Assembly: GCA_937120965.1 (NCBI GenBank)
Contig: CAKZKA010000154.1
Span: 1-33,356, forward strand
Direction: 5' to 3'
From: an uncultured Chloroflexota bacterium
GTDB taxonomy: Bacteria > Chloroflexota > Chloroflexia > Chloroflexales > Chloroflexaceae
Length of the DNA: 33,356 nt
The notes under the pieces are model-generated. The model made no database searches and had not been told where the DNA came from. It worked only from the letters and a program-made list of their open reading frames with translations. Below, piece after piece: positions 11,495 to 33,104 of this stretch. Each line of letters starts with the position of its first letter. Within the stretch, counting starts at the first letter, position 1. Position numbers and translations under genes: made by a program.

Positions 11495-11504
11495 AGCGCG
11501 CACC

Positions 11505-13139: not shown

Positions 13140-13313
13140 ATGGAAAGTAACCCCGTTGGCCTGGAGGAACTCGAAGGAGCGGTTGAGAGTGAGGAAGAGA
13201 CTGGTCTGATTGACGCGGCGGAGGCCCCTCTGGCTGAAGAGGATGCGCCGGAGATCCTGGCCGAACTGGTGGTCGAAGAAGTGAGCATTGATGGGATGTG
13301 CGGCGTCTACTAA
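13140..13313 (+). CDS. mftA: Mycofactocin precursor peptide MftA
   Basis: A 57-aa ribosomal precursor, acidic throughout, whose last residues are EEVSIDGMCGVY, the invariant tail of MftA peptides. In the known pathway MftC decarboxylates the C-terminal Tyr and crosslinks it to the preceding Val, and MftE then releases the modified Val-Tyr dipeptide. The Val-Tyr end is intact here. The ATG at 13140 has a perfect AAGGAGG six bases upstream. Lacking 60 codons, the gene is easy to miss. It heads the plus-strand block, but it is separated from mftB by a repeat-filled spacer and an SDR gene. The spacer begins directly at the stop codon with GGTGAAAATA, resembling the edge of repeat family A. Confidence 0.95.
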   Translation: MESNPVGLEELEGAVESEEETGLIDAAEAPLAEEDAPEILAELVVEEVSIDGMCGVY

Positions 13314-14436: not shown

Positions 14437-14751
14437 ATGGAACTTACTGCGACCTACCGGCTCGCGCCCTACGTGGCCCTCCGCGCCGAGCGCTTTGGCG
14501 GGTTAATCTACCGCTACGACAATCGCCGGCTCTACTTCCTGCACGCGCCCGAGCTCGTCAGGCTGCTCCATGCCCTGGACGGCGCGACGACCCTGGGCGA
14601 GGCGCTCGAGGCCCTGGGGGTCGCGGAGCCGGCCCGTGGCCGGTACCTGCGCGCCCTGGCACACCTCCAACGCCTGGGCGTGATCGTCGGGCCGGATATT
14701 CCCGGACCACCTGCTCTGCCCGCCGTCGCGGCAGGGAGCGCGCCGGCCTGA
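14437..14751 (+). CDS. mftB: Mycofactocin chaperone MftB (RiPP recognition element)
   Basis: A 104-aa PqqD-like winged-helix protein that binds the MftA leader and presents it to MftC. The pattern YRLAPYVALRAERFGGLIYR, then RLYFLHAPELVRLLHALDG, an acidic helix and a final HLQRLGVIV match MftB in order and length. The Ala/Pro-rich tail (about 89-104) looks disordered. The ATG at 14437 follows AAAGGCAGG. It is 1.1 kb from mftA with an SDR between them, unlike the adjacent mftAB order of mycobacteria. The next gene, a response regulator, starts 26 bases after its stop. Confidence 0.9.
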   Translation: MELTATYRLAPYVALRAERFGGLIYRYDNRRLYFLHAPELVRLLHALDGATTLGEALEALGVAEPARGRYLRALAHLQRLGVIVGPDIPGPPALPAVAAGSAPA

Positions 14752-15974: not shown

Positions 15975-17246
15975 ATGGAAGCGCACAAGCTCTGGCAGTT
16001 CCCAATCAAGGAGTTCCACCCGTTCCCACGGGGGCTGATCGGTCCGGGAGCCTATGAGATGGTAGGCGTCGAGGCGAAGAAGCTCGGCTTCAAACGCACG
16101 CTGCTGATGACCTCGGGCATCCGTGGCACCGACCTGGTGGAGGACGTCGCGGCAAAGCTCCGCTACCAGGGCATTGATGTGGTGATCTACGATAAGGTCG
16201 AGTCGAACCCCAAGGACTACAACTGCATGGAGGCCGCCGATCTCTACATGCGCGAGAAGTGCGACAGCTTCGTTTCCGTCGGCGGCGGAAGTGTGACCGA
16301 CGCAACCAAGGGCGCGCGTCTGGTGGTTGCCCACGATGGGCGCAACATCAATGAGTTCGATGGGTTCAACAAGTCCGACCCCGACCGCCAGAAGAACCCC
16401 CCGCACATTGCGATCAACACCACCGCCGGTACCGGTTCGGAGACGAGCTGGGCGTTCGTGATCACCGACACGACCTCCGAGCGCGCCCCGCGCAAGTGGC
16501 TGGGCTTCGATGATAGCTGTATCGTGACCCTGGGGATCAATGACCCCTATGTGTTCAAGACGATGCCGCAGGATCTGACCGCTTTCTGTGGCTTTGATGT
16601 GCTGGCGCACGGCTCGGAGCCGTATGTTTCGCGGCTCGACTTCCCCGCCAGTCTGGGCGGCGCGCTGAAGTGTATCGAACTGGTAGCCCAGAATTTGCGC
16701 GAAGTGGTCGCCAACCGCAACAACTTCGAGGCCTGGACGAATATGGTCTGGGCGCAGTACATCGGCGCGCAGGCCTTCAACAGCGGCGGTCTGGGCATTA
16801 TCCACTCGATCTCGCACGCAGTTAGCGCCTACTACGACAGCCACCACGGTCTGAACAATGCCATTGCCCTGCCGCGGGTCTGGGCGTTCAACCTGCCCTC
16901 GAACTACCGGCGCTACCGCGATATCGCCCGCGCGATGGGCGAGCGGGTGGACGGGTTGAGCGATGTTGCGGCTGCCGAGCGAGCGGTTGAGGCGGCCATT
17001 CGCCTGGCCAAGGATGTGGGCATTCCGCCCAACTTCAAGAGCGTCGGCGAGTACAGCAAGTCGCGGATGGGCAAGGGCGTGTACGAAAAGTGGAGCGGCC
17101 CGCGCATCATCGGCGACGATAACGATGTTGACCGCGTCTCCAAGCACGTCCTCGGCGATGGCTCGACGCCCGGCAACCCGCGCGAAGTGACCTTCGAGTC
17201 GGTCTGGCCGGTGGTGGCCCACGCGATGCGCGAGTCGTACTACTAA
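15975..17246 (+). CDS. mdo: NDMA-dependent methanol dehydrogenase (group III alcohol dehydrogenase, Mdo/Mno type)
   Basis: A 423-aa enzyme matching the decameric Mdo of actinomycetes, which keeps NAD(P)(H) tightly bound, oxidises methanol and other short alcohols, and needs an external acceptor (NDMA in vitro, mycofactocin in vivo). Diagnostic stretches are KLWQFPIKEFHPFPRGLIGP at the N-terminus, the nucleotide site SVGGGSVTDATKG (about 101-113), and metal-binding CGFDVLAHGSEPYVS and HSISHAVSAYYDSHHGLNNA. Length is exactly as expected. The ATG at 15975 has AAAGGAG nine bases upstream. A long leader and AT-rich promoter region suggest its own regulation. The adjacent MoxR/VWA pair may help its assembly or activation. 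Confidence 0.95.
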   Translation: MEAHKLWQFPIKEFHPFPRGLIGPGAYEMVGVEAKKLGFKRTLLMTSGIRGTDLVEDVAAKLRYQGIDVVIYDKVESNPKDYNCMEAADLYMREKCDSFVSVGGGSVTDATKGARLVVAHDGRNINEFDGFNKSDPDRQKNPPHIAINTTAGTGSETSWAFVITDTTSERAPRKWLGFDDSCIVTLGINDPYVFKTMPQDLTAFCGFDVLAHGSEPYVSRLDFPASLGGALKCIELVAQNLREVVANRNNFEAWTNMVWAQYIGAQAFNSGGLGIIHSISHAVSAYYDSHHGLNNAIALPRVWAFNLPSNYRRYRDIARAMGERVDGLSDVAAAERAVEAAIRLAKDVGIPPNFKSVGEYSKSRMGKGVYEKWSGPRIIGDDNDVDRVSKHVLGDGSTPGNPREVTFESVWPVVAHAMRESYY

Positions 17247-17261
17247 ACGTGAGCCTTTCTC

Positions 17262-17300: not shown

Positions 17301-17360
17301 CTTGCGGGCAGATGTGAGACTATGCGGTGGAGCCGCGTGGGCGCCGAATGGAGTACATAC

Positions 17361-18490: not shown

Positions 18491-18594
18491 GAGTGTTGAT
18501 GCTGGATTGTTGATTGTTACGCAAGGTGTCGGGTGCGCTTTGAGGCTCCACTGGCACGTGAGTGAACGTGCCGGATGCACCAGTAAGGCTGGCC

Positions 18595-20076
18595 ATGGAT
18601 ATCCCAATCACACGCTTTGTAGCGCTGCTGAAGCGCCACGGTATCACCGTTTCGCCAGCCGAGGCGATTGACGCCCTGCAAGGGTTGGCCCTGGCAGGCA
18701 TTGATGACCGTGAGACGGTGCGCGTGGTGCTGCGTAGCACGCTGGTGAAGCAGTGTCAGGCCATTGCCGAGTTTGACCGGCTGTTTGACCTGTTCTTCAG
18801 CCTGCCGGCCCCCGCTGATGGATCGCTAGCAACCGGGCCAGACGGCGCCACCGCTCCGCTTCAGCTCGACAAGAACGGCGCTGAGGCGCCGGCAGCGCCG
18901 GAAGGGGCGCGCGCCGAGCTGGCGCCTGTCGAGATCGAAACCGAGCGAACCACCCGCGCCCCGGTGACGCCGGAGTACGAAGGCGTCGATCTCTCGCTCT
19001 TCGGGCAGCACCTGCTGTTGCAACAGCGCCGCGACCCGGGTGAAGCAGGCTACAAGCCGACCTTTCACGTCAATGCCCGCCACAATCCTGGCCTGCCCGG
19101 GGGCGGGGAGTTGAGTGCGGGCGATCCGGGTGAGGAGATCGATCTCGGCGGCGCGGTTGAGGCCCTGCTGGCCGACCTGCGCGCGCTCGAGGTGGACGAG
19201 GCCCTGCTGGAGCAGCTCGAGGCCCAGCTCGCCGGGAGCCTCTCCCGACTGCCCGATCTGCTGCGGCGCTACCGCGCGCGCGACGCGGCGCTGCAACGCC
19301 CCCACAACGCCGCGCCGGCGCCGCCGCGGCCCCGGCGCAGCTACCGCTTCAACGACCACGAGCGCCGCCAGATGGACGAGATCATCCGCCGCCTGGGACG
19401 GCAGATGCGCGGCGCGCTCTCGTACCGCAAAACCACCAACCGGCGCGGGCGGATCAATGTCTCGCGCACCATTCGCAGCAATCTGAAGTACGACGGGGTG
19501 CCCTTCTTCCCGGTGCTCTCCAACCAGCGCGAGGAGCGCCCGCGCCTCACCGTGATCTGCGATGTCAGCCTGTCGGTGCGCACCACCGCCCGCTTCATGC
19601 TCCACCTGGTCTACAGCCTGCAATCGCTCTTCAGCCGGGTGCGGAGCTTTGTTTTTGTGAGCGATCTGGCCGAAATCAGCGCCGAGATCGAACGCTCCAG
19701 CCTGGAGGAAACAATCGATCGCGTCTTCAGTGGCGAGATTATCAATACCGAAGAAAACAGTAATTACGGCCGGGCGCTGGAGATTTTCTACGAGCGCTAC
19801 CGCTCAGCGGCCACCAGCCGCACCACGCTGATCATCCTGGGCGATGGGCGCGGCAATCGCAACCCGCCGAACGCCTGGATCCTGGAAGAACTGCGCCGAC
19901 GCTGCAAACAGGTGATCTGGTTGACGCCGGAGTCGCGCGGGAGCTGGCACCTCGGCGCGTCGGATATGCCGACCTATGCCCCGATCTGCCACAAGGTCGA
20001 AGTCGTGCGAAACCTGGATCAACTGGGGCGCGTGGCCGAGAACCTGGTGCGGAGCTCGTTTGCTAACCGGAGATAG
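18595..20076 (+). CDS. VWA domain-containing CoxE-like protein
   Basis: A 493-aa cytoplasmic protein. The N-terminal 70 residues (RFVALLKRHGITVSPAEAID) are typical of CoxE. The middle (about 75-250) is low-complexity and variable. The C-terminal half has the VWA domain with a MIDAS metal site DVSLS (D323, S325, S327), followed by the conserved HLVYSLQSLF and YGRALEIFYERY regions. Such proteins pair with MoxR ATPases in Cox, Nor and Cbb systems to activate metalloenzymes. I prefer the ATG at 18595 (AAGG six bases upstream) over the GTG at 18562. The next gene starts two bases after its stop. The client is unknown; Mdo is the obvious candidate. Confidence 0.88.
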   Translation: MDIPITRFVALLKRHGITVSPAEAIDALQGLALAGIDDRETVRVVLRSTLVKQCQAIAEFDRLFDLFFSLPAPADGSLATGPDGATAPLQLDKNGAEAPAAPEGARAELAPVEIETERTTRAPVTPEYEGVDLSLFGQHLLLQQRRDPGEAGYKPTFHVNARHNPGLPGGGELSAGDPGEEIDLGGAVEALLADLRALEVDEALLEQLEAQLAGSLSRLPDLLRRYRARDAALQRPHNAAPAPPRPRRSYRFNDHERRQMDEIIRRLGRQMRGALSYRKTTNRRGRINVSRTIRSNLKYDGVPFFPVLSNQREERPRLTVICDVSLSVRTTARFMLHLVYSLQSLFSRVRSFVFVSDLAEISAEIERSSLEETIDRVFSGEIINTEENSNYGRALEIFYERYRSAATSRTTLIILGDGRGNRNPPNAWILEELRRRCKQVIWLTPESRGSWHLGASDMPTYAPICHKVEVVRNLDQLGRVAENLVRSSFANRR

Positions 20077-20078
20077 CC

Positions 20079-21020
20079 ATGGTTCCTCTGTTTCTGTCAC
20101 CCTGGCGGCATGGCGCCCTCACGACTTGCCTCGCGGCAACCCTCGGGGCGACGGCCGGCAGCCGGCATTTTACGATCTATCGGCTGGAGCCGGCCCGGCA
20201 CACCCCGTCCGCCGGCCCGGAACTGGTTGTGGTGCATACCTTTGGCCCCGAACAGATCGACAACAATCTGGGCTTTTATGTGGCCAACGAGCTGCTGCCG
20301 CTGCTGAGCGCCGCGCGGGGCCGCCTGCCCGACCCCGCGCCCACGGACGAACCGTTCGCCCACGACCAGCAGACGCTCTTTGAACAGTGCGTCGGGGCGA
20401 TTGTCCGCTCGATGGACGGCAATGAGGGCCGGGCCTGGCATCGGTTTTATGTCAACTCCCTGGCGGCCCTGGAAGCGGCCATGCAGCGCGATCAGCCGGC
20501 CAGTGATTTCATCGGTCCCTTCGGGGTGATTTACCGCCGCCTGATGGAACTGGCGCGCGGCATCAGCCTGCTCGACGCCGGTACCTGTTTTGGTTTTCTG
20601 CCCCTGCTCCTGGCCCGCCGGGGCGGGCCGCCGCACACCATTGTCGGCTGCGACCTCGACGGCGCCCTGGTTGGCTTTGCCAACGCCTATGCCCGGCTGG
20701 CAGGGCTGGCAAATGTCAGCTTCACCGTCGCCGATTTGCTCGGCGATGACCTGGCGCGCCTGGGGCGCTTCGACACCGTGACCTGCGTGCACGTCCTCGA
20801 GCACCTGGAGCCGGCGCAAACACTGGCCGCCCTGCGCGCCCTCTGGCAACTCACCGCGCAGCGCCTGATCGTCACCGTGCCCCTGGAAGAGCAGCCCGAT
20901 CCGCGCTTCGGCCACCGCCAGACGTTTACCACCGGGCGCCTGGAGATCCTGGGTCGCGAACTCGGCGGGCGCTTTCAGACCTTTGAGTTGCACGGGTGCT
21001 GGCTGGTCGTGGATCGGTGA
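20079..21020 (+). CDS. mftM: SAM-dependent methyltransferase, MftM-like
   Basis: A 313-aa class I methyltransferase. Motif I is SLLDAGTCFGFLPLLLARR (163-181), the acidic motif II is VGCDLDGALVG (189-199), and FDTVTCVHVLEHLEP is motif IV. The N-terminal 150 residues (HTFGPEQIDNNLGFYVANEL; FEQCVGAIVRSMDG) are unlike generic methyltransferases and, from memory, resemble MftM, which methylates the oligoglucose chain of mycofactocin in mycobacteria. Its position directly before mftC supports this. The ATG at 20079 follows CCGGAGA, two bases after the VWA stop, so translation is probably coupled. A general sugar or lipid methyltransferase remains possible. Confidence 0.78.
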   Translation: MVPLFLSPWRHGALTTCLAATLGATAGSRHFTIYRLEPARHTPSAGPELVVVHTFGPEQIDNNLGFYVANELLPLLSAARGRLPDPAPTDEPFAHDQQTLFEQCVGAIVRSMDGNEGRAWHRFYVNSLAALEAAMQRDQPASDFIGPFGVIYRRLMELARGISLLDAGTCFGFLPLLLARRGGPPHTIVGCDLDGALVGFANAYARLAGLANVSFTVADLLGDDLARLGRFDTVTCVHVLEHLEPAQTLAALRALWQLTAQRLIVTVPLEEQPDPRFGHRQTFTTGRLEILGRELGGRFQTFELHGCWLVVDR

Positions 21021-21030
21021 AAGGATTGCC

Positions 21031-22083
21031 ATGAGCTACGAAATCTTCCGCCAGGGCCTGGACGCGCCGATCTGTCTGACCTGGGAGCTGACCTACGGCT
21101 GCAATCTGCGCTGCGTTCACTGTCTCTCGTCGTCGGGCCGGGCGCATACCGGCGAGTTGAGCACCGCCGAGGCGCGCCACCTGATTGACGAGTGGGCGGC
21201 CATGAAAGTGTTTTATGTCAACGTCGGCGGCGGCGAGCCGATGAGCCGGCCCGATTTCTTCGAGTTGATGGATTATTGCCTGGAACGCGGGATCGGGGTG
21301 AAGTTCAGCACCAATGGCACCTTGATTGACGCCGCCGCCGCGGCCTGGATCGCCGCCCGCGACTATCTGGACCTGCAGATTAGCCTTGATGGCGCCACGG
21401 CGGAGACGAACGACCCGGTGCGCGGCACCGGCGCGTTCCGGCGGGCGCTGCGGGCGATGGAACTGCTGGCGGCAGAAGGCTTTCCCTTCAAGATCAACAC
21501 CGTGGTCACGCGCCAGAATGCCCATCAACTCGATGACCTCTACGCCCTGGCGCAACGCTACGGCGCCCAGTTGCGCGTCACTCGCCTGCGTCCCTCCGGG
21601 CGCGGCGCGGAGGTATGGGAACATATGCGCCCGACTCACGCCCAGAACCGCGCCCTCTACGAGTGGCTCCTGGCCCACCCCGATGTGATGACCGGCGACT
21701 CGTTCTTCCACCTTTCGGCCTATGGCACGCCGATTGATGGCCTGAACATGTGCGGCGCCGGGCGGATCGTCTGTTGCGTGGACCCGGTGGGCGAGGTGTA
21801 CGCCTGTCCGTTTGTGCTGGCGCCTGAGTTTTCGGCGGGCAATGTGCGCGCGCCGGGGGGCTTTACCCACATCTGGCGCCACGCCCCGCTCTTCGCGCAC
21901 CTGCGGCAGTGGCAGGTGGGCGGCACGTGCCAGCAGTGCAATGCGTATGCCCTGTGTCACGGCGGCTGTATGGCGGTCAAACACTTTACCGGACGCTCGC
22001 TCGATGACCCCGATCCCGACTGCATTTTCGCTGGGGAGACGGCGGCGCTGCGCACCGGGGTGATCCCCTTGCAGCAGTGGTAG
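21031..22083 (+). CDS. mftC: Mycofactocin radical SAM maturase MftC
   Basis: A 350-aa radical SAM/SPASM enzyme. It oxidatively decarboxylates the C-terminal Tyr of MftA and then forms the Val-Tyr carbon-carbon bond, using MftB to hold the peptide. The SAM cluster site is C24-x3-C28-x2-C31 (YGCNLRCVHC), followed by NVGGGEPM. The C-terminal SPASM region supplies further cysteines in MCGAGRIVCCVDP, YACPF and CQQCNAYALCHGGC, enough for two auxiliary 4Fe-4S clusters. The ATG at 21031 has AAGGA five bases upstream, ten bases after the mftM stop. The upstream in-frame extension to 20983 lies inside mftM and was rejected. mftC is 6.3 kb from mftB, an unusually wide gap. Confidence 0.95.
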   Translation: MSYEIFRQGLDAPICLTWELTYGCNLRCVHCLSSSGRAHTGELSTAEARHLIDEWAAMKVFYVNVGGGEPMSRPDFFELMDYCLERGIGVKFSTNGTLIDAAAAAWIAARDYLDLQISLDGATAETNDPVRGTGAFRRALRAMELLAAEGFPFKINTVVTRQNAHQLDDLYALAQRYGAQLRVTRLRPSGRGAEVWEHMRPTHAQNRALYEWLLAHPDVMTGDSFFHLSAYGTPIDGLNMCGAGRIVCCVDPVGEVYACPFVLAPEFSAGNVRAPGGFTHIWRHAPLFAHLRQWQVGGTCQQCNAYALCHGGCMAVKHFTGRSLDDPDPDCIFAGETAALRTGVIPLQQW

Positions 22084-22139: not shown

Positions 22140-22262
22140 CCAGACCTTCCCTCCGGGCCGAGGCTTTAAGAGCAGACAGAACATCCGAGCCAGTGTGGTT
22201 TGTACCGCATTGGAACGCCGCCGGGGGTGAGGACCAACCAGCGCATCTCAAACCATAACGCC
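22140..22262 (-). repeat. Interspersed repeat family B, copy 3 (inverted)
   Basis: Complement of the 1220-1390 unit: GGCTTTAAGAGCAGACAGAA, TTGTACCGCATTGGAACGCC and TGAGGACCAACCAGCGCATC match in order. It lies in the 221-bp gap between mftC and the first OYE-type gene, inside the operon. A degenerate family A core is just upstream (about 22090-22125). Confidence 0.7.
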
Positions 22263-22304
22263 CGTCGGCGCCCATTCAGTCGGCGCTTCTGGAAAGAGGA
22301 GATC

Positions 22305-24287
22305 ATGGCTGAACTCTTCGCTCCGTTGTTCCAACCCCTGCGCCTGGGGCGGAAAACGGCGCCCTCGCGGATCGTCTTCGCCGCGCACCAGACCAACTTC
22401 GCGCGCCACAATCGCTTCGATTCACGCCACGCCGCCTACTACGCGGCGCGCGCCCGGGGCGGCGCGGGGGTGATCGTCCTCGAAGGCGGTGTGGTGCACC
22501 CCTCCGACTGGCCCTACGAGTACGCGATCTTCGGCTATGACGAACAGATCGTGCCCACGTACCAGATGCTGGTCGAGGCAGTGCGCCCCCACGGCACGCT
22601 CCTGCTGGCCCAGTTGACCCACAGCGGAATGCAGGGCACCAGCCACTACTCCCAGGCGGCCCTCTGGGCGCCCTCGCCGATTCCCGATGTCAACAGCCGC
22701 GAGATGCCCAAGGAGATGGAGCCGGAGGACATCGCCGCGGTGATTGACGGCTTTGCCACGGCGGCGCGCTACGCCATAGAGGGCGGTCTGGACGGGGTGG
22801 AGATCAACGCCGGACCGGATAGCCTGGTGCGCCAGTTCCTCTCCCCGCTGACCAACCAGCGCCAGGACGAGTATGGCGGCTCCTCGGAGAACCGGATGCG
22901 CTTCGCCCGCGAGGTGATTGCCGCAGTGCGCCGCGCCGTCGGCGATGAGGCCGTGGTGGGCCTGCGCCTCAGTGGTGACGAGCACGCCCCCTGGGCGGGC
23001 ATCAAGCCCGGCGACGCCGCCGAGATCGCCCGCATCCTCAGCAGCGAACACCAGATTGACTACCTCAGTGTGACCAGCGGCAGCATCTACACACCCCACC
23101 TGACCCGCGCCGGTCTGTTTATGCCCCCGGGCTATGCTCTGCATCTGGCCGCCGAGATCAAGGCCGCCGTGCAGGTGCCGGTCTTTGCCCAGGGTAGCAT
23201 TGTGGACCCGCGGCAGGCAACGATGGTGCTGGTGGAGGGCCGGGCCGACGCGGTAAAGATGACCCGCGCCCTGATCGCCGACCCCGACCTGCCGCGCAAG
23301 GTGCGCGAAGGGCGCGCCGAGGACGTGCGCCAGTGCATCCTCTGCAACCAGGATTGTATGGTGCAGAGTGTGCAGAACCCGCGGCTGAGCTGTTCGATCA
23401 ATCCGGCCGCCGGCCACGAGGCCCACGCCGAATTTGCCAGCCTGCCCCCGGCGGTGCGCCCGAAGCGCGTGATGGTCATCGGCGGCGGCCCGGCGGGGAT
23501 GGAAGCAGCCCGGATCGCTGCCCTGCGTGGCCACCGGGTAACCCTCTACGAACAGAACGAGACCCTGGGAGGCGCGCTGCTCCTGGCCTCCGCCGAACCC
23601 GGGCGCAAACGCCTGGAGTTGATTGGTCAGTGGCTTGAAGCCCAGATCCGCAAGCTCGGCGTGACCATCCGGCTCGGGGTGACGGCGACCTTCGAGACCG
23701 TGCGCGCCGAGATGCCCGACGCGGTCATCGTCGCAGTGGGCGGCGTGCCGGTTCTCTACCCGGGGGTTGACTTCGACAACAGTGTGCCGGTGCTGAACGA
23801 GCGTGATGTGCTCGGCGGAGCGCCGCTGCCGCCCATCGGCAAAGCCGTGGTGCTCGACGAGATCGGCGACCACGATGGCATGGCCGTGGCCGAGTGGTTG
23901 GTACACAAAGGCTGGCGGGTCGAGATCGTCACCCGTGACATGTTTTGCGGCCAGCGCCTCACCGCTACCCAGGAGCTGACCGCCTGGAACCAGCGGGCCT
24001 GGAGCAAAGGCGTAGTCTTCCATCCCCAGCAAGAGGCCGTGCGGGTTACTGAACGGACCTTGATCATGGTCGATCGTTTCAGCCGCGAGGAGCAGCGGAT
24101 CGAACAGGTGGACCTGATCGTTGACGTGACCTACGACCGGCCCGACGAGACGCTGTACTTCACGCTGAAGGAAGCCGGCTTCGGCGCCGAGGGTATGCCG
24201 GCTCTGTACCGCGCGGGCGACTGTGTGGCTCCGCGCCGGATCGGGCAGGCCATTCTCGAAGGCTATCGCGCTGGAAGGGCGGTGTGA
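22305..24287 (+). CDS. Mycofactocin-system OYE/FadH-like oxidoreductase 1
   Basis: A 660-aa FMN / 4Fe-4S / FAD protein. The OYE barrel spans about 1-340. The iron-sulfur cysteines C344-x2-C347-x3-C351-x11-C363 have the spacing of E. coli FadH and trimethylamine dehydrogenase. A Rossmann FAD motif VIGGGPAGMEAA starts near 391. Ser173 replaces the catalytic Tyr of FadH. The second nucleotide domain reads VVLDEIGDHDGMAVAE and lacks GxGxxG, as in trimethylamine dehydrogenase, which donates to ETF. Dienoyl-CoA reductase activity is therefore unlikely; I infer oxidation of reduced mycofactocin or a linked substrate with transfer to the ETF encoded downstream. The ATG at 22305 follows AGAGGAGA. Confidence 0.9.
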   Translation: MAELFAPLFQPLRLGRKTAPSRIVFAAHQTNFARHNRFDSRHAAYYAARARGGAGVIVLEGGVVHPSDWPYEYAIFGYDEQIVPTYQMLVEAVRPHGTLLLAQLTHSGMQGTSHYSQAALWAPSPIPDVNSREMPKEMEPEDIAAVIDGFATAARYAIEGGLDGVEINAGPDSLVRQFLSPLTNQRQDEYGGSSENRMRFAREVIAAVRRAVGDEAVVGLRLSGDEHAPWAGIKPGDAAEIARILSSEHQIDYLSVTSGSIYTPHLTRAGLFMPPGYALHLAAEIKAAVQVPVFAQGSIVDPRQATMVLVEGRADAVKMTRALIADPDLPRKVREGRAEDVRQCILCNQDCMVQSVQNPRLSCSINPAAGHEAHAEFASLPPAVRPKRVMVIGGGPAGMEAARIAALRGHRVTLYEQNETLGGALLLASAEPGRKRLELIGQWLEAQIRKLGVTIRLGVTATFETVRAEMPDAVIVAVGGVPVLYPGVDFDNSVPVLNERDVLGGAPLPPIGKAVVLDEIGDHDGMAVAEWLVHKGWRVEIVTRDMFCGQRLTATQELTAWNQRAWSKGVVFHPQQEAVRVTERTLIMVDRFSREEQRIEQVDLIVDVTYDRPDETLYFTLKEAGFGAEGMPALYRAGDCVAPRRIGQAILEGYRAGRAV

Positions 24288-24288
24288 G

Positions 24289-26247
24289 ATGAACCAGGGC
24301 GCCCGTCTGCTCTTTACGCCGATCAAGGTCGGCAGCCTGACGCTCAACAACCGGATCGTCTTCTCGGCGCACCTGACAAACTACGCCGAGGGGTATATGC
24401 CCTCCGAGCGCCACGTCTACTACTACCGCGAGCGGGCGCGTGGCGGGGCGGGCCTGATCATTACCGAGGAACACTCGACCCATCCCACCGATCACCCCTA
24501 CGAGAAGCTGATCCACGCCTTCAACCCGGCGGTGATACCCGGCTACCGGCAGATCACGGCTGCGGTCCATGCCGAGGGCACGCCCATCCTGGCCCAGATC
24601 AACCACAACGGCGGCCAGAGCAGCGGGATGTTCACCCGGCTGCCGGCCTGGGCGCCCTCGTCGGTGGCCGACCCGATGTTCCGCGAGGTGCCCAAGGCGG
24701 TCGAGCTGGAGGATATTCAGGAGATCATCGCCGGGTACGCGCAGGTGGCCTACCACACCCAGCTCGGCGGCTTCGACGGGGTGGAGTTGCAGTGCTCGCA
24801 CTCGTCGATCGTGCGGCAGTTCCTCTCGCGCCACAACAATCTGCGCACCGACGGCTACGGCGGCGGGCTGGAGCAGCGCATGCGCCTGCTGCGCGAGATT
24901 ATTGCTGCGATCCGCGCCCGGGTCGGGCGCAGCTACGTGCTGGGTGTGCGCCTCTGCGGCGATGAGCTGATCCGCGATGGCATTGTGCTCGACGAAGCAG
25001 TGGCCGCGGCGCGCATTCTGGAGGCCGATGGCCTGATTGACTACATCAACACCAGTATCGGCACCGCCACCCACACCCTCTACATGATCGAAGCCTCGAT
25101 GCACATCCCGCCGGGCTACGCGCTGTTCATTTCCTCGGCCATCCGCAAGGCGGTACGGCTCCCGGTGATCGGCGTGGGACGGATCAAGGACCCCATTCAG
25201 GCCGAGCGGGTGTTGCAGGAGGGCCACGCCGACCTGGTGGGGATCGTGCGCGCCCAGATCGCCGACCCCGAGTTCGCCCGCAAGTCGCGCGAGAACCGGG
25301 TGGAGGACATCCGGTTGTGCCTCTCGTGCAACCAGGAGTGTGTCGGGCGCATGGGGCTGAATCGCTGGATGGGGTGCATCGAAACGCCCGCAACCGGCCG
25401 CGAGAAGGAGCTGGGTATCGGCACGCTCCAGGCCGCGCCGCGCCCCAGGCGGGTGACCGTGGTCGGCGGCGGGCCGGCGGGTCTCAAGGCTGCGGTCATC
25501 GCCGCCCGGCGCGGCCATCGCGTCACCCTCTACGAGCGACAACCGGAACTGGGCGGACAGGTGAATCTGGCAGTCAAGGTGACCAACCGGGCCGAGTTTG
25601 GCGATCTGGTGCGCAACCTGCTCCACGAATTGCACCAGCTCGACGTGACGGTGCACACCGGTGTGGCCGCCACTGCCGAGATGGTCCTGGCCGGACAGCC
25701 CGACGCCGTAGTGATCGCCACTGGCTCCACCCCCGACCGCAACGCCTTTCCGGGCGCCGACGGCCCCGAGGTCGCCGACGTCACCGACATTCTCGCCGGG
25801 CGGGTCACGCCGGGCCGGCGGGTCATGATCATCGATCGCCTGGGCTTTCACGAGGTGACCAGCGTGGCCGAGTACCTGGCCGAGCAGGGCTGCCGGGTGG
25901 AGATCGTCACGCCAACCCTCTACGTCGGTCAGGATCTCGGCATCACTCTGGATCTCGAAAACTGGTACCGCCGCGCCCGGCAACTCAAGATCGTCTGCAC
26001 GCCGAACGTCTCAGTGCTGAATGCCGCCAACGGCGTGGTCACCGCGGTGCACAACTACAGCGGGCAGATCATCACTTTCGATCCGGTGGACACGATCGTG
26101 CTGGCGGTACAGCGGCGCGCCGACAGCGGGCTGTACTTCGCGCTGAAAGGGCGCGTGCCGGAACTGCACCGCATTGGCGATGCCCTGGCGCCGCGCCGCG
26201 CCCACGCGGCGATCATCGAGGGTGAGCGGGTAGGGCGGGCGTTGTAG
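24289..26247 (+). CDS. Mycofactocin-system OYE/FadH-like oxidoreductase 2
   Basis: A 652-aa paralogue of the preceding protein with the same layout: FMN barrel with AQINHNGGQ (102-110), cluster cysteines C344, C347, C351 and C363, and FAD motif VVGGGPAGLKAA near 391. The FadH catalytic Tyr is again Ser173 (HSSIVRQFL). The last nucleotide fold is VMIIDRLGFHEVTSVAEYL, without a dinucleotide fingerprint. The ATG at 24289 starts one base after the stop of gene 1 (TGAGATG), so translation is probably coupled and a heteromeric complex is plausible. The two copies are quite diverged, suggesting separate jobs, for example different substrates or catalytic and structural roles. Electron acceptance by the downstream ETF is inferred. 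Confidence 0.9.
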   Translation: MNQGARLLFTPIKVGSLTLNNRIVFSAHLTNYAEGYMPSERHVYYYRERARGGAGLIITEEHSTHPTDHPYEKLIHAFNPAVIPGYRQITAAVHAEGTPILAQINHNGGQSSGMFTRLPAWAPSSVADPMFREVPKAVELEDIQEIIAGYAQVAYHTQLGGFDGVELQCSHSSIVRQFLSRHNNLRTDGYGGGLEQRMRLLREIIAAIRARVGRSYVLGVRLCGDELIRDGIVLDEAVAAARILEADGLIDYINTSIGTATHTLYMIEASMHIPPGYALFISSAIRKAVRLPVIGVGRIKDPIQAERVLQEGHADLVGIVRAQIADPEFARKSRENRVEDIRLCLSCNQECVGRMGLNRWMGCIETPATGREKELGIGTLQAAPRPRRVTVVGGGPAGLKAAVIAARRGHRVTLYERQPELGGQVNLAVKVTNRAEFGDLVRNLLHELHQLDVTVHTGVAATAEMVLAGQPDAVVIATGSTPDRNAFPGADGPEVADVTDILAGRVTPGRRVMIIDRLGFHEVTSVAEYLAEQGCRVEIVTPTLYVGQDLGITLDLENWYRRARQLKIVCTPNVSVLNAANGVVTAVHNYSGQIITFDPVDTIVLAVQRRADSGLYFALKGRVPELHRIGDALAPRRAHAAIIEGERVGRAL

Positions 26248-26310: not shown

Positions 26311-27348
26311 ATGCAAATCGTCGTAATCGCCGAAACCGAGCACGGCGCAGTGACGCGGCCAGCGCTGGAGTGTGTCGAGGAGGCGCGCGATCTTGCCAGC
26401 GCGCGCGACCTGCGGGTGCGGGCGCTGCTGCCGGGCGCCGGTCTGGAGGAGCAGGCGGCCACCCTGGCGGCGCACGGCGCCGATGAAGTGACGCTGATCG
26501 AACACGAAGCCCTGGCCCGCGCCAGCGCCGATGCCTGGCTGGCGGCGCTGGAGCCGGTGATCCGACCCCTGAGCCACCGCTCCTACGGCGGGTTGCTGCT
26601 GCTGGCCCCCGACACCAGCCATATGCGGGCCTGGCTGCCCCGGCTGGCGTTGCGCCTGCACGCGCCGATGGTAAGCCACTGCCTGGAAGTGCGCCAGGAT
26701 GGCGCCGACCTGGTGTTTGTGCGCCCCACCTACAGCGGCGCGCGCCACGAGCACCTGGTCTGCCCCGGAGCGACGGTCATCTGCGCGACCCTGGCTCCCA
26801 ATACCCGTGGCATCGGGCGGGGTGATGTGCGCCGGCGCCCTCAGGTGACCCACGTCACCCCCACCATTGATACAGCGCGCCTCCGCGACCGGCCCGTGCG
26901 CACCATTCCCGCCGATCCACGCACGGTTGACCTGCGCGAAGCCGAGCGCATCGTCGCCGGGGGCCTGGGCCTGGGCGGCCCGGAGGGCGTGGCGCAACTC
27001 TGGGAACTGGGCAACCGGTTGCAGGCGGCCGTAGGCGGTACGCGCGTTATCTCCGACCGGGGGTGGCTGCCGACCGATCGCTTTATCGGCACGACCGGCA
27101 AGATCGTTGCGCCGAAGCTCTATCTGGCCCTGGGAATCTCAGGGGCCAGTCAACATACCTCGGGTATGAACGCAAGTGAGACGGTGATCGCCGTCAATCT
27201 CGACCGTACCGCCCCGATCTTCGGCCTGGCCGACCTGGGCATCGTGGCTGATGTGCGACAGCTTATTCCCGCCCTGCTGGAGCGCCTGGCAGCCGAGCCG
27301 CAGCGCAGCGCGACAGACAATGACCATAGCCGCCAGGTGGCGGCCTGA
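26311..27348 (+). CDS. etfA: Electron transfer flavoprotein alpha subunit (EtfA/FixB)
   Basis: A 345-aa subunit carrying the exchangeable FAD of the ETF dimer. The N-terminal domain starts MQIVVIAETEHG. The C-terminal FAD domain shows the alpha signature YLALGISGASQHTSGM, followed by AVNLDRTAPIFGLADLGIVAD, with RVISDRGWLPTDRFIGTTG earlier. Together with EtfB (29207) it should carry single electrons from the two OYE-type proteins to FixC. The ATG at 26311 has a weak AGGGA upstream. Its stop TGA forms part of the edge of a family A repeat (CTGAGGTGAACATACGGGG), so the repeat abuts or overlaps the C-terminus. EtfA and EtfB are split by fixC and fixX, unlike the usual adjacent order. Confidence 0.93.
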   Translation: MQIVVIAETEHGAVTRPALECVEEARDLASARDLRVRALLPGAGLEEQAATLAAHGADEVTLIEHEALARASADAWLAALEPVIRPLSHRSYGGLLLLAPDTSHMRAWLPRLALRLHAPMVSHCLEVRQDGADLVFVRPTYSGARHEHLVCPGATVICATLAPNTRGIGRGDVRRRPQVTHVTPTIDTARLRDRPVRTIPADPRTVDLREAERIVAGGLGLGGPEGVAQLWELGNRLQAAVGGTRVISDRGWLPTDRFIGTTGKIVAPKLYLALGISGASQHTSGMNASETVIAVNLDRTAPIFGLADLGIVADVRQLIPALLERLAAEPQRSATDNDHSRQVAA

Positions 27349-27440
27349 GGTGAACATACGGGGAAACCGGGTTTCCCCACCTGCGGTGAGCCTGTCGAAC
27401 CGCACCCCTGCCTGTGGAGGCGGCAAGCCCTCCGCACAGG
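27349..27440. repeat. Interspersed repeat family A inside the ETF operon
   Basis: Edge TGAGGTGAACATACGGGG, core at 27360-27378, then CACCTGCGGTGAGCCTGTCG and CGCACCCCTGCCTGTGGAGG as in copy 2. It separates etfA from fixC by 144 bp in an operon whose other gaps are mostly overlaps. Confidence 0.8.
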
Positions 27441-27492
27441 CAGGGGCTGAGAGGGCGCAGCCCTCCTGAGCATAGCCTGTGAAGGATACGCT

Positions 27493-28929
27493 ATGGCTTT
27501 GTTGAGCAAAGAGGCCTCTCTGGCGCTGGTGCAGCAGGTGCACCGCCTGATCGGCATGAAGAACGGCGTCGCCCCTCACGACGCGCCGCGACCGCGGCCC
27601 CAGCGCAACGCGCCGCGCCCGGGCGCCGAGCGCTTCGATGTGATCGTCGTTGGCGCCGGGCCGGCCGGGAGCGCCGCAGCGCTGGTGGCGGCGCGCGCCG
27701 GGCTGAAGGTGCTGCTCCTCGAGCGCGGTGAGTACCCCGGCGCCAAAAACGTCTCCGGCGCGGCCTTCTACGGTAGCGCCATTCTCCACGACCTCATCCC
27801 CAACTGGTGGGAACAGGCGCCGGTCGAACGCTACCTGACCCGACGCGTGCTCGCGTTTATGACCGCCGAGACGTCGGTGGCGATCGATTTTCGCACCACC
27901 CGCTTCGCCGAGCCGCCCTACAACGGCTTCAGCATCCTGCGCCCGAAGTTTGACCGCTGGTTCGCCGATCAGGCCGTTGCCGCAGGCGCCTTCCTGCTCA
28001 ACGCTGCTGTGGTGGACGAGGTGCTCTGGGAGGACGACCAGGTGGTGGGGGTGCGCGTGCGCCGCGACGAGGGCGACCTGCGCGCTGATGTGGTGATCGC
28101 CTGCGATGGCGCGAATTCGTTCCTCGCCAAGAACGCCGGCCTGCAACGTGAGTTCCATGCCCATGAGATGTCGCTCGGGGTGAAGGAGGTGCTGGCGCTC
28201 GATGAGGCGATCATTCGCGAGCGTTTTCACCTCCACGACAATGACGGCCTGGCAATTGAGTATATCGGAGCCATTACCGAAGAGGTCAGCGGCGGCGGCT
28301 TCCTCTACACCAACCGCGACAGCCTCTCGCTGGGTGTCATCGGTCAGATCTCCTCGCTGGCCGAGCACAAGCGTCGCCCCTACGAGTTGCTGGAGACCTT
28401 CAAGCGCCACCCCGCGGTGGCCCCCCTGGTGCGCGGCGGCAGGGTGCGCGAGTACTCGGCCCACATTATCCCCGAAGCGGGCTGGAACATGCTGCCAAAG
28501 CTCTACACTGGCGGCATGCTGGTGGCGGGTGACGCAGCGGCGTTATGCTTCGTGGCCGGGTTGTACCTCGAAGGCATCAACTACGCCATCCAGTCGGGCA
28601 TTGCCGCAGGCGAAACCGCCGTAGCCGCCCATCAGGAGCGCGATTTCTCGGCTCGCTCACTAGCCCGCTACGTCGAGCGTCTGCGGGCGCGACACGTCAT
28701 CACCGATTTCGCAAACTACCGCCACGCCCCGGCACTGGTCAACAGCCCGCGCCTGCAGAACCTGTACCCGGAAATCATCGCCGCCGGCGCCGAGCAGGTC
28801 TTCCGCGTGAACGGCGGTCCTAAACGCAAGCTCCTGCCCATCGCCCTCGAGGCCCTTCGCCGCGCCCAGGTCTCGCCGGTACACGTGCTCCAGGACGCTT
28901 TGCAAGCAGGGAGGTCATTCGGATGGTGA
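27493..28929 (+). CDS. fixC: FixC-like ETF:quinone oxidoreductase flavoprotein
   Basis: A 478-aa FAD protein of the FixC/ETF-QO family, which accepts electrons from ETF and reduces quinone at the membrane surface. The dinucleotide fold FDVIVVGAGPAGSAA begins near 48, followed by LLLERGEYPGAKNVSGAAFY, typical of FixC. GGMLVAGDAAALCFVAGLYLEGINYA is the second FAD motif plus membrane-association segment. An extra N-terminal stretch (1-47, Pro/Arg-rich) precedes the FAD fold. Unlike mammalian ETF-QO it lacks a fused iron-sulfur domain; FixX, encoded immediately after with a 7-base overlap, supplies it. The ATG at 27493 follows GAAGGAT. It probably links mycofactocin oxidation to the respiratory chain. 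Confidence 0.93.
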   Translation: MALLSKEASLALVQQVHRLIGMKNGVAPHDAPRPRPQRNAPRPGAERFDVIVVGAGPAGSAAALVAARAGLKVLLLERGEYPGAKNVSGAAFYGSAILHDLIPNWWEQAPVERYLTRRVLAFMTAETSVAIDFRTTRFAEPPYNGFSILRPKFDRWFADQAVAAGAFLLNAAVVDEVLWEDDQVVGVRVRRDEGDLRADVVIACDGANSFLAKNAGLQREFHAHEMSLGVKEVLALDEAIIRERFHLHDNDGLAIEYIGAITEEVSGGGFLYTNRDSLSLGVIGQISSLAEHKRRPYELLETFKRHPAVAPLVRGGRVREYSAHIIPEAGWNMLPKLYTGGMLVAGDAAALCFVAGLYLEGINYAIQSGIAAGETAVAAHQERDFSARSLARYVERLRARHVITDFANYRHAPALVNSPRLQNLYPEIIAAGAEQVFRVNGGPKRKLLPIALEALRRAQVSPVHVLQDALQAGRSFGW

Positions 28930-29207
28930 GCATTCCTCTGGAAGAACGCATGCGCACGGTGCGCTTCAAGGTGGACGACCAGCCGCACATCGTCGTCAAC
29001 GCAGCCGTATGCGCGAAGTGCTCCGTGCGCGCCTGCGTCTATGTCTGTCCAGCCAATCTGTTCGTGCCGCTGGACGATGGGGGCATTCTCTTCAACTATG
29101 AGGAGTGCTTCGAGTGTGGAACCTGCTACATCGCCTGTAATCAAGAGGGCGCCATCCAGTGGTCGTACCCGCGCGGCGGCTATGGCGTCACCTTTCGGGA
29201 GGCGTAA
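28923..29207 (+). CDS. fixX: FixX-like ferredoxin, iron-sulfur partner of FixC
   Basis: A 94-aa ferredoxin. C30-x2-C33-x4-C38-x3-C42-P and C62-x2-C65-x2-C68-x3-C72 would bind two 4Fe-4S clusters. The ending WSYPRGGYGVTFREA is characteristic of FixX and of the ferredoxin domain of ETF-QO. It should relay electrons between the FixC flavin and quinone. The ATG at 28923 has GGGAGG upstream and overlaps the fixC end by seven bases. Its stop shares one base with the etfB start (TAATG), so fixC, fixX and etfB are translationally coupled. Confidence 0.94.
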   Translation: MVSIPLEERMRTVRFKVDDQPHIVVNAAVCAKCSVRACVYVCPANLFVPLDDGGILFNYEECFECGTCYIACNQEGAIQWSYPRGGYGVTFREA

Positions 29208-30067
29208 TGCGTATTGCCGTCTGTCTCAAACAGGTGCCCGACCCGGCCACGGTCGAGGTTGATCCGCTCACCGCGGCGCTGGATACGCGCCGGATGCTCT
29301 ACATCGCCGGTCCGGCTGATACGGCGGCCCTGGAGCTGGCCCTGCGCCTGGCCGGCCCCACGGGTCAGGTCAGCGCGCTGTGCGTCGGCCCACCCGCCGC
29401 CGATGCGGTGCTGCGCATGGCGCTCGCCGTCGGCGCAACGGAGGTGCGCCGGCTCTGGGTGCCGCCCTTCCTCTCGCTCCAGGCGCCGGCTCAGACCGCG
29501 CTGTTGCTGGCTGCGGGGCTGCAACGGGCGACGATCCCTGATCTGGTGCTCTGTGGCGCCCGCAGCAGCGACCAGGGCAGCGGCCAGGCGCCGGCCCTCC
29601 TCGCCGAGTTCCTCGACTGGCCAGTGGTGTGCGATGTCACGCAGATTGCTATGGAGGGGGATCGCGTGCGAGTGCAACGCCGCCTCGACCGCGGGGCGCG
29701 CGAGGAACTGGAGGTGCGCCTGCCTGCGGTGCTGGCGGTTGAAGCCAACCTGGCCCGCCTGCGCCATGCCAGTCTCCCCGGGCTGATGCGCGCCGAGCGG
29801 GCCAGCGTTCCTGTCAGCCATCTGGAGGATCTGGGGCTTGAGCCGGCCGATCTGGCCTTTCCGACCGCAAGCGTGCGGGCGGTGACGCCGCCGCGCCCGC
29901 GCACGCGCCCGATCTTCACGCCCGACAGCACCCGCCCGGCCCACGAGCGCATTACGCAGATTATCACTGCCGGCGTGACCCGCAAATCGGGCAAGGTGCT
30001 CGAAGGGCCGCCGGCGCAGATGGCCGATGCAGTGGTAGAGTTCCTGCGCGAGCGCGGGTTTGTGTAG
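29207..30067 (+). CDS. etfB: Electron transfer flavoprotein beta subunit (EtfB/FixA)
   Basis: A 286-aa subunit starting MRIAVCLKQVPDP, the standard EtfB start, with ALRLA and VSALCVGPPAADAVLRMALA following. The nucleotide-binding segment reads LVLCGARSSDQGSGQAPALL followed by AEFLDWP. Canonical ETFs bind AMP here and bifurcating ETFs a second FAD; the sequence does not clearly settle which. The ATG at 29207 overlaps the fixX stop by one base and follows CGGGAGGCG. The longer open frame to 29159 lies inside fixX and was rejected. Together with EtfA it makes the soluble carrier between the OYE-type proteins and FixCX. Confidence 0.92.
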   Translation: MRIAVCLKQVPDPATVEVDPLTAALDTRRMLYIAGPADTAALELALRLAGPTGQVSALCVGPPAADAVLRMALAVGATEVRRLWVPPFLSLQAPAQTALLLAAGLQRATIPDLVLCGARSSDQGSGQAPALLAEFLDWPVVCDVTQIAMEGDRVRVQRRLDRGAREELEVRLPAVLAVEANLARLRHASLPGLMRAERASVPVSHLEDLGLEPADLAFPTASVRAVTPPRPRTRPIFTPDSTRPAHERITQIITAGVTRKSGKVLEGPPAQMADAVVEFLRERGFV

Positions 30068-30092: not shown

Positions 30093-30117
30093 CCGGCCCC
30101 GCCAGATGGGTGACACC

Positions 30118-30867
30118 ATGACAACCCAACGCAACCTGGCCCATCTAACCTGGCCCGAGGTGGCGCGCGCGGTAGCCGAAGGCGCCACCACAGTCATTCT
30201 ACCCCTGGGGGCGACCGAGCAACACGGGCCGCACCTGCCCCTGGGCACCGATACGATCCGCGCCGAGGGGCTGGCCCGGCGACTGGCGGCGCGGCTGCCG
30301 GGGGCGCTGGTGGCGCCGGTTCTACCCATCGGCTGCTCGGACGAGCACGCGGGCTTTCCCGGCCTGTTGAGCCTCGATGCCGCGACCCTCGCCGCCGTGA
30401 TCGTCGATTGTGCGCGGCGCATGGTTGCCTGGGGCGTTACCCGCCTGGTGCTGCTCTCGGCCCACGGCGGCAACGGTCAGGCCCTGGCCCTGGCCGCTGA
30501 ACGCCTGCGCCACGAACTGCCCGTCCTGCGCGTCTGGGCGCCTGAGGAGAGGCTGGCGCCCGATGAGGCCGTTCTTGCCGTTGCCACGGGCGCGGGGATC
30601 ACTCCCCAGGAGTTCGGACTCCACGCTGGCGAGGGCGAAACCTCGGAAGTGCTCTGGCTGCGCCCCGACCTGGTGCGCGCCGAGGCTGCCGCTGCCGGTT
30701 ACTGTGGCGAGATGGCAACGATCCTCGATACCCTCCGGCGCCTGGGGTTGAAGGCCGTCACCCCCAACGGCGTGCTTGGCGACCCCGCGCGCGCCCTGGC
30801 CGCGCGCGGCGACCGCTACCTCGACGCCCGGGCAGGCGCGCTGGCAAAGGAGTTGCTCGCGTGGTAG
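30118..30867 (+). CDS. mftE: Mycofactocin precursor peptidase MftE (creatininase family)
   Basis: A 249-aa metal-dependent peptidase that releases the crosslinked Val-Tyr dipeptide from MftC-modified MftA. The metal site is GATEQHGPHLPLGTD (31-45; E34, H36, D45). SAHGGNGQ (H116) and AGEGETSE (170-177) complete the creatininase set. Length equals that of mycobacterial MftE. I prefer the ATG at 30118, preceded by GGTGA, over the ATG at 30106, which has no ribosome site. Its end overlaps the mftF start by seven bases. Confidence 0.93.
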   Translation: MTTQRNLAHLTWPEVARAVAEGATTVILPLGATEQHGPHLPLGTDTIRAEGLARRLAARLPGALVAPVLPIGCSDEHAGFPGLLSLDAATLAAVIVDCARRMVAWGVTRLVLLSAHGGNGQALALAAERLRHELPVLRVWAPEERLAPDEAVLAVATGAGITPQEFGLHAGEGETSEVLWLRPDLVRAEAAAAGYCGEMATILDTLRRLGLKAVTPNGVLGDPARALAARGDRYLDARAGALAKELLAW

Positions 30868-33104
30868 CATCGCCTCCAGCCCTTCGGACCACCCGCCGCC
30901 AGCGCTGGGCCGCGGCGCTGACTCTGCCCGGCCAGCCCGACCTGGCGCAGAGCCTGGTGGTCGAACTGGCCGCGTTCCTGGAGCAGCCGGTGGAGGAGGT
31001 TGAGGCCCGCTGCCGCCTGGCTGCCGGCGACCTGGCGCGGGCCTGGCGCAACGCCGCGCCCGCTACCCCGGCAGCCATCACCGCCTTCTACCGCGACACC
31101 GATGCCTACCTCTACGATCTGACCTGGTGGCACACCCTGGCGGAGGACGAGAGCGCGCTGGTGCAGGTAGAGGCCCTGGAGGCGGCCCTGGCCCACCACG
31201 CCCGCAGCGCGCTCGACTTCGGCGGCGGTATCGGCTCGCTAGGGTTGCTGCTGGCCCGTCACGGTCTGGAGGTGACCCTGGCCGATGTCAACGCGCGCCT
31301 GAACGCCTATGCGCGCTGGCGCTTCGCGCGGCGGGGCCTGCACGCGCGCGTGATTGACCTGCCCCCCGGCGCGCCCGATCTGCCTGTCGCGGCCTTCGAC
31401 TTCATCAGCGCGGTGGATGTGTTCGAGCACCTGCCCGAGCCAGGAACCACCCTGGTGGCCCTGGCCGCAGCGCTGCGGCCAGGCGGCGCCCTCTTTATCC
31501 ATCTACCCGGCAACGCTGACGCGGGCCATCCCATGCACCTCTGGCGCCAGCCGGCTACCCTCCTGCGCCACCTGGAGGCCGCCGGTCTCTGGCTGGAGGG
31601 TGAAAGCAGCCAGATCGAACCCGGCGGCAACGCTCGCCTGCTGCTGCGGCGCGGCCAGGGCCCGCGCTACCGGCTCAATCAGGGGTTGGAACTGCGCGCC
31701 GATACCGCAGGCGGAACATTGCTCTCCTTGCGGCCCCTGGTGGCGCTGCGCCTCAACCAGCAGGCCTTTGACACCCTCGCCACCCTCAACGGCGGCAGCA
31801 CCGCCCTTGAAGTGGTTGCGGACCATCCCGGGTTGTCCCTCCCTACCACAACGACGTTCCTCGACGCCCTGGCTCGGCGACGCCTGCTTGTCAAACAACC
31901 CGCGCCAGTTGAACACCTGCCCTCCGTCTCGGCGATCGTCCCGGCCCACGGCCGCCCGGAGGCAACGCGGGCCTGTGTTGAGTCGCTGCTGGCCCAGCAC
32001 TACCCGGCGGAGCTACTGGAGGTGATCGTGGTTGACGACGCCTCGAACCCACCGCTGGCCCCGGCCCTCGCCGGGCTGCCGATCCGCCTGCTGCGCCAGG
32101 AGGAGAACACTGGCCAGTCGGCGGCCCGCAACCGCGCGGCAGAACTGGCGCGTGGCGAGGTGCTGGCCTTTCTCGATAACGACTGCGTTGCTGCCCCCGA
32201 CTGGCTGCGGACCCTGGTCGCCGCGCTCGACGAGCCGGGCGTAGAGATTGCCGGTGGACGGGTGCTGGCGCCGCCGCCGGAGGGGCCAGTTGCGGCCTTC
32301 GAGGCGGTGCGCTCGCCGCTGGATATGGGGCCGGTCAGCGGGGCAGTTGGCCCCGGCGAGCCAATCAGCTACATGCCTTCGTGCAACCTGGCCATCCGGC
32401 GCAACCTGCTCCTGCGTATCGGCGGCTTCGATCCGGCTATGCGCCTGGGGGAGGATGTTGATCTGATCTGGCGGGCGCTGGCCACGGGCGCGCAGGCGCG
32501 CTACGTGGCCGAAGGCGCGGTCGTTCACCATCATCGCGTGCGTCTGGGGGCGCTGCTGCGTCGCCGCGCCGACTACGCCTCCTCAGAGGCCGACCTGCAA
32601 CGGCGCCACCCTGCGGGCCGGCGCACTATGGCGCTCCCGAGGGTCACGCTGGCGCTCCTGGCGGCCCTGGTCCTTGCCTGGAGCGCCCCGGTTCTGGCCG
32701 GGCTGATCGTCATCGGCGCCAGCTTCGCCCTGATGCGCGAGATCCGGCGCAAGCAGCGCGACCTGCGGCGCCACGGCGTCCACCTGCCCTGGCATCAGGT
32801 GAGCGCTGCGGTGCTGCAACAACATCAAGCGGCGCTCTACCACCTGGGGGCCAACGTCACCCGCTACTACAGCCTGCCCCTGCTGGCTGCTGCCCTGCTC
32901 TGGCGGCCCTTGCTGCCGGCGCTGCTGCTGCTTTGCCTCACCCCGCCGGCGCTCGACTACCACCGTCTGCGCCCGCAGGTGGCCCTGCCGCTGTTCGTCG
33001 GCCTGTACTGGCTGGAATTGTGCGCCTACCAGGTGGGCGTCTGGCGCGGCTGCCGGCAACGTCGCACCCTGCGTCCGCTGGTCCCGGCGCGTGTGATTGT
33101 ATGA
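30861..33104 (+). CDS. mftF: Methyltransferase-MftF fusion: mycofactocin glycosyltransferase with N-terminal SAM methyltransferase
   Basis: A 747-aa protein. Residues 75-265 form a class I methyltransferase: ALDFGGGIGSLGLLLARHG (117-135, motif I with FGGGIG), ADVN (141-144) and DFISAVDVFEHLPEPG (180-195). Residues 265-350 are the PqqD-like segment that begins ordinary MftF proteins (YRLNQGLELRA). Residues 353-560 are a GT2 glycosyltransferase with VSAIVPAHGRP, VVDDAS, FLDND (437-441) and EDVD (531-534). Three hydrophobic segments follow (about 593-623, 670-695, 705-728). MftF adds glucose chains to (pre)mycofactocin and is normally about 470 aa, so the methyltransferase is an extra domain. 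The GTG at 30861 has AAGGAG eight bases upstream and overlaps mftE by seven bases. Confidence 0.92.
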   Translation: MVASPPALRTTRRQRWAAALTLPGQPDLAQSLVVELAAFLEQPVEEVEARCRLAAGDLARAWRNAAPATPAAITAFYRDTDAYLYDLTWWHTLAEDESALVQVEALEAALAHHARSALDFGGGIGSLGLLLARHGLEVTLADVNARLNAYARWRFARRGLHARVIDLPPGAPDLPVAAFDFISAVDVFEHLPEPGTTLVALAAALRPGGALFIHLPGNADAGHPMHLWRQPATLLRHLEAAGLWLEGESSQIEPGGNARLLLRRGQGPRYRLNQGLELRADTAGGTLLSLRPLVALRLNQQAFDTLATLNGGSTALEVVADHPGLSLPTTTTFLDALARRRLLVKQPAPVEHLPSVSAIVPAHGRPEATRACVESLLAQHYPAELLEVIVVDDASNPPLAPALAGLPIRLLRQEENTGQSAARNRAAELARGEVLAFLDNDCVAAPDWLRTLVAALDEPGVEIAGGRVLAPPPEGPVAAFEAVRSPLDMGPVSGAVGPGEPISYMPSCNLAIRRNLLLRIGGFDPAMRLGEDVDLIWRALATGAQARYVAEGAVVHHHRVRLGALLRRRADYASSEADLQRRHPAGRRTMALPRVTLALLAALVLAWSAPVLAGLIVIGASFALMREIRRKQRDLRRHGVHLPWHQVSAAVLQQHQAALYHLGANVTRYYSLPLLAAALLWRPLLPALLLLCLTPPALDYHRLRPQVALPLFVGLYWLELCAYQVGVWRGCRQRRTLRPLVPARVIV

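Follow-up and report, generated by a model that had tools for sequence, protein, structure and literature searches.

A methyltransferase-MftF fusion in the mycofactocin operon of a Chloroflexota bacterium and its predicted role in glucan O-methylation

The mycobacterial glycosyltransferase MftF is a protein of 470 aa, and the M. smegmatis enzyme is known to build a beta-1,4-glucan chain on mycofactocin that reaches nine units at most; the second sugar of the mycobacterial product is 2-O-methylglucose and is not described as an end cap (PMC7491314). Another paper (PMC11778925), citing earlier work, assigns this 2-O-methylglucose to a separate methyltransferase, MftM. No mycofactocin structure from outside mycobacteria was found in the papers retrieved, and for mycofactocin in Chloroflexota or Rubrobacter the open-access literature yielded only a 2011 survey and a cultivation paper. 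Both kinds of enzyme are known already, while no description of a methyltransferase-MftF fusion was found in the open-access literature, a scope outside which most subscription papers fall.

Gene content of the mycofactocin locus

The window, that is, the whole stretch of 33,356 nucleotides that was analysed, is an entire contig of a 5.18 Mb genome from an uncultured Chloroflexota bacterium. It was found to hold a complete mft operon (mftA, mftB, mftC and mftE), and its features include the following:

13140..13313, + strand: mftA, precursor ending in IDGMCGVY (TIGR03969 match at 13245-13310, 49.4 bits)
14437..14751, + strand: mftB (TIGR03967 match at 14446-14685, 86.8 bits)
15975..17246, + strand: NDMA-type methanol dehydrogenase, mycofactocin-associated (TIGR04266, 651.6 bits, cut-off 625)
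20079..21020, + strand: separate MftM-like methyltransferase, immediately following MadC (160.7 bits to NF041255, short of its cut-off of 200)
20983..22083, + strand: mftC, radical SAM maturase (TIGR03962, 617 bits; ORF as called)
22200-24287 and 24223-26247, + strand: two FadH/OYE oxidoreductases of mycofactocin systems (TIGR03997, 788 and 973 bits, cut-off 793)
26311..30067, + strand: etfA, FixC-like ETF:quinone oxidoreductase and etfB (NF038209, PRK10157-type and TIGR04503, all below cut-offs)
30106..30867, + strand: mftE, creatininase-type peptidase (TIGR03964, 179.6 bits, cut-off 172)
30861..33104, + strand: methyltransferase-MftF fusion gene (747 aa, GTG start, no internal stop)

The start of the fusion gene overlaps the stop of mftE, and in most of the loci read mftE likewise immediately precedes the fusion. 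The true start of mftC is probably slightly downstream of the start of the called ORF. A mycofactocin-coupled SDR, a NarL-type response regulator, MadB and MadC are further encoded in the window, and the whole operon is kept in order in two genus-mates of the window genome.

A search for MftD (TIGR03966) in five fusion genomes, namely the window genome and four others, gave no match. The two mycofactocin-type FadH/OYE enzymes (22200-26247) may take over the step of MftD or act as redox partners, and etfA, the FixC-like ETF:quinone oxidoreductase and etfB, which lie inside the operon, might link mycofactocin to quinone. Beside the operon, on the minus strand (9391-12827), lie MadR/MadS-like two-component genes and an ErcA-like iron alcohol dehydrogenase, which together suggest alcohol-responsive control. 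The block comprising the NDMA-methanol dehydrogenase, MadB, MadC and the MftM-like gene (15975-21020) was present in the same order in two actinobacterial fusion loci (L158 and L160); a third (L163) has the same methanol-dehydrogenase block but two MadC copies.

Domains of the fusion protein

The fusion protein was divided as follows:

30861..31670, + strand, residues 1-270: N-terminal class I SAM methyltransferase domain, with a helical cap (~1-111) and a Rossmann core from ~114
31683..31910, + strand, residues ~275-350: MftF N-terminal segment, beta and winged-helix-like, where the TIGR03965 match begins
31911..32630, + strand, residues ~351-590: GT2 catalytic domain of MftF (Pfam PF00535; Foldseek matches)
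32640..33062, + strand, residues ~594-734: C-terminal long helices (DSSP on the AlphaFold model), probably membrane-associated

The earlier note had read 30861-33104 as a methyltransferase followed by MftF in one frame, and its coordinates and domain order were right, as were the two motifs it named (FGGGIG and VFEHLPEPG), both of which are present in the translation. The AlphaFold model of the full-length protein was of high confidence (pLDDT 93.4, pTM 0.87) and, taken with the Pfam boundaries, showed the two parts to be joined by only ~30 residues. No coiled-coil ruler was apparent between them, there being no long helix at that place in the model.

The first domain was matched by Pfam Methyltransf_23 (PF13489; residues 114-232, 4.9e-15, 56.1 bits, cut-off 27) and Methyltransf_12 (PF08242; residues 118-211, 49 bits, cut-off 30). 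A Rossmann fold, a glycine-rich motif I (119-DFGGGIGSLG) and an acidic residue after strand 2 characterise it as a class I enzyme. Across 12 of 12 fusions compared, motif I residues D119, G121, G123 and G125 were invariant, the acidic residue after strand 2 (position 142) was D or E, and D186, E189, H190, H214 and H226 were invariant as well. Only glycosyltransferases were among the matches listed when the whole model was submitted to Foldseek, and the domain was thus modelled alone (pLDDT 92.8, pTM 0.92). In this case, the best fold matches were SAM- or SAH-bound methyltransferases (Z ~19 over ~187 residues), with VIA-align giving Z 19.4 to SAM-bound ChlM and SAH-bound UbiG. A SAM pocket is therefore predicted, and its absence, which the earlier note had named as a refutation, is not borne out by the model. 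Pfam, AlphaFold and the invariant SAM motifs thus agree with the earlier description of a complete class I methyltransferase. The sequence and fold matches are to enzymes that act on small molecules, quinones, lipids and tRNA and do not single out one family of sugar O-methyltransferases, which counts against a sugar acceptor.

The remainder of the protein is a full-length MftF, which matched NCBIfam TIGR03965 at residues 275-743 (426 bits, cut-off 280; profile positions 4-464 of 467). Pfam Glycos_transf_2 was detected at residues 357-472 (6.9e-29), and the Foldseek matches were GT2/GT-A enzymes, including the cellulose synthase BcsA. The assignment of a GT2 domain and of MftF itself was thereby upheld, while the PqqD-like nature proposed for residues ~275-350 drew weak support: PqqD/HTH signals were faint, PF05402 (PqqD) gave E 0.058 in one relative and no match in the window protein, and hhalign of this segment with MftB gave a probability of 26% (pairwise E 7e-4).

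Relation to MftM and proposed function

The fused domain scored 19.9 bits against NF041255 (MftM), where the cut-off is 200. This score, together with the separate MftM-like gene located between MadC and mftC in the same operon, ruled out a transfer of MftM into MftF. MftM orthologues scoring above the NF041255 cut-off were found after MadC in three actinobacterial fusion genomes. Of the 11 fusion genomes tested, eight had an MftM or MftM-like gene and three did not (G452, G422 and G509); where the loci could be read, this gene adjoined MadC in the methanol-dehydrogenase module. In G353 the MftM-like gene (L105:233-1387) contains an insertion (384 vs 313 aa) and gave two NF041255 matches. Because the window genome and the three actinobacterial fusion genomes carry MftM or an MftM-like gene as well, the fused domain is judged, by sequence comparison, to be an extra, second methyltransferase, and because it scores so low against NF041255 and occurs with or without MftM, the two are judged independent. 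The separate methylation enzyme of mycobacteria, to which the note had pointed, is known, while the contrast drawn from it (fused here, separate there) is incomplete, since the window has an MftM-like gene of its own, which the note had missed, and since three actinobacterial fusion genomes have MftM.

The closest unfused relatives of the domain are free-standing Methyltransf_23/11 proteins from Acidobacteriota and Rokubacteria (L091, L092 and L093; ~40% identity), which have glycosyltransferase or ABC-transporter neighbours and, unlike the fusion, are neither joined to MftF nor located in mft operons. The extra helical N-terminal part (residues ~6-111) is common to the fused domain and its unfused relatives. 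The two Acidobacteriota relatives directly follow a GT2 gene, several unfused relatives were found in glycosyltransferase or polysaccharide-export loci, and MftF-like GT2 genes were present within 8 kb in L091, L092, L093, L094, L095, L098 and L101. Some others (Pseudonocardia, Methylobacterium) lack any neighbour that resembles the GT2 domain of MftF. The loci of the relatives point to a putative glycan substrate, in a setting where methyltransferases are common anyway. The Acidobacteriota relatives in L091 (7977-9515) and L092 (7977-9506), encoded right after the GT2 gene, are themselves proteins with two methyltransferase domains in one chain.

Most likely, the fused domain places an O-methyl group on the mycofactocin glucan, and does so at a different site from MftM. 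The full reading that we favour, and consider probable, is that of a bifunctional mycofactocin-maturing enzyme in which MftF adds glucose and the fused methyltransferase O-methylates the same glucan, with a position distinct from that of MftM. The MftF part (GT2, probably membrane-associated) would add beta-1,4-glucose units to the mycofactocin aglycone, and the N-terminal domain would O-methylate the glucan being made by the same polypeptide, the catalysis, the sugar acceptor and the position all being predictions. The fusion would keep the methyltransferase where the chain is being made. In most carriers it would be a second, position-distinct methyltransferase beside MftM, and in the three genomes without MftM it would be the sole recognisable mycofactocin methyltransferase.

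As a special case of glucan O-methylation, the fused domain could put its methyl group on the non-reducing end of the glucan during growth and thereby halt further extension. Terminator methyltransferases stop chain extension in ABC-exported O-antigens. The occurrence of polymerase and methyltransferase in one polypeptide is in keeping with such capping, as is the second methyltransferase beside MftM, which suggests a different methylation position, and the K. pneumoniae O7 ORF6 protein, composed of methyltransferase, kinase, coiled-coil and GT2 modules, terminates its chain (PMC11231755). The fusion, by comparison, has neither a coiled-coil ruler nor a kinase module, with its parts so close together, and the known mycobacterial methyl group is on the second sugar and is not described as an end cap. 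Capping is accordingly a tentative proposal that we regard as rather unlikely. Slightly more doubtful is its extended form, in which one enzyme polymerises and methyl-caps the glucan and thus sets its length while MftM adds another methyl group, giving doubly methylated, length-controlled mycofactocins unlike those of mycobacteria.

A different acceptor, the aglycone or peptide-derived part of the molecule, was also considered, for example with an O- or N-methyl group on the AHDP/PMFT head. The gene adjoins mftE, the peptidase that acts before completion of the aglycone, and small-molecule O/N-methyltransferases are among the fold neighbours; however, adjacency to mftE is the usual mft gene order and says little, and several unfused relatives are found in glycan loci. 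This reading is considered improbable, less so than one in which the domain is catalytically dead or structural and serves as a scaffold or for substrate docking. Non-catalytic class I methyltransferase folds do exist, but the SAM-motif residues are invariant, or conserved as acidic, in all 12 proteins from two phyla, and the domain is under strong purifying selection, which leaves an inactive domain a slim prospect. Among three genus members, dN/dS was 0.16-0.25 in the Rossmann part and 0.09-0.14 in the GT2 domain, and both domains of the fusion are under purifying selection.

Distribution, origin and comparison with known systems

A frame error or misassembly merging two adjacent genes can be dismissed, its probability being negligible, because independent genomes, single large contigs among them, carry the same fusion (735-776 aa) at 54-86% identity; the artefact that had been raised as a test of the fusion is thereby excluded.

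A search with the N-terminal domain recovered the fusion in two more genomes of the genus (83-86% identity) and in one genome of another genus (66% identity), and the three further fusions found in this way are 745, 745 and 757 aa long. A scan of named genomes added records from Chloroflexales (743 aa) and Rubrobacter sp. (776 aa). In a sample of 400 Chloroflexota genomes, MftF was above cut-off in 18, and the frame was long enough for a fusion in only four, all from the family of the window genome. Within the order of the window genome, MftF was present in 8/82 genomes and was fused in 8/8; one of these lacks its beginning because the contig ends within the gene, and the match begins at residue 65.

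A sample of 396 genomes of Actinobacteriota (the phylum of G408) contained MftF above cut-off in 51. Ten of the frames were of at least 719 codons (719-893); all ten were fetched and a methyltransferase was identified in six, while the remaining four were rejected as fusions, their length being no more than that of extended open frames typical of GC-rich DNA. The six fusions belong to one class of 39 genomes, that of G452, and account for 6/6 of its MftF genomes; grouping with the Rubrobacter sp. fusion in the tree (100/100) suggests that this class is Rubrobacteria. No fusion was found among the other Chloroflexota or Actinobacteriota MftFs surveyed, with early contig ends leaving a small uncertainty in the count of unfused MftFs. 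The search that the note had proposed, for MftF proteins of more than 700 aa with the methyltransferase first, thus led to Chloroflexota and Actinobacteriota.

A tree of the MftF core (45 proteins) placed the 12 full-length fusions in one clade (100/99), within which the proteins from Chloroflexales (100/98) and those from actinobacteria (88/91) each form a clade of their own, and the fused state required one change on the tree. The tree of the methyltransferase domain agreed, more weakly (84/98). Because the 12 full-length fusions form one clade, a single fusion appears to have spread across the two phyla, and the simplest reading of the trees would be that the fusion arose once and then passed from one lineage to the other. 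It is genuine, and it is both old and conserved.

For Chloroflexota of the order Chloroflexales and for Rubrobacter-type actinobacteria, the fusion leads one to expect a sugar chain of another kind, which may carry two methyl groups, and the three fusion genomes with no detectable MftM provide a clean test of the role of the fused domain. It would also represent a biosynthetic gene fusion that arose once, was transferred and is now fixed in two phyla.

Compared with MftF (TIGR03965), the fusion shares a full-length core scoring above cut-off, the mft operon and the mftE neighbour, and differs by the ~270-residue SAM methyltransferase in front of a core that in mycobacteria stands alone (470 aa; PMC7491314). 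Like MftM (NF041255), the fused domain is a class I SAM methyltransferase tied to mycofactocin, but it belongs to a different family (19.9 bits vs 200). The ORF6/WbdD-type terminators, such as that of Klebsiella pneumoniae O7, likewise combine a methyltransferase with a glycan polymerase, either in one protein or as partners; they differ in having a kinase, a coiled-coil ruler and a methylphosphate cap, none of which was seen in the fusion.
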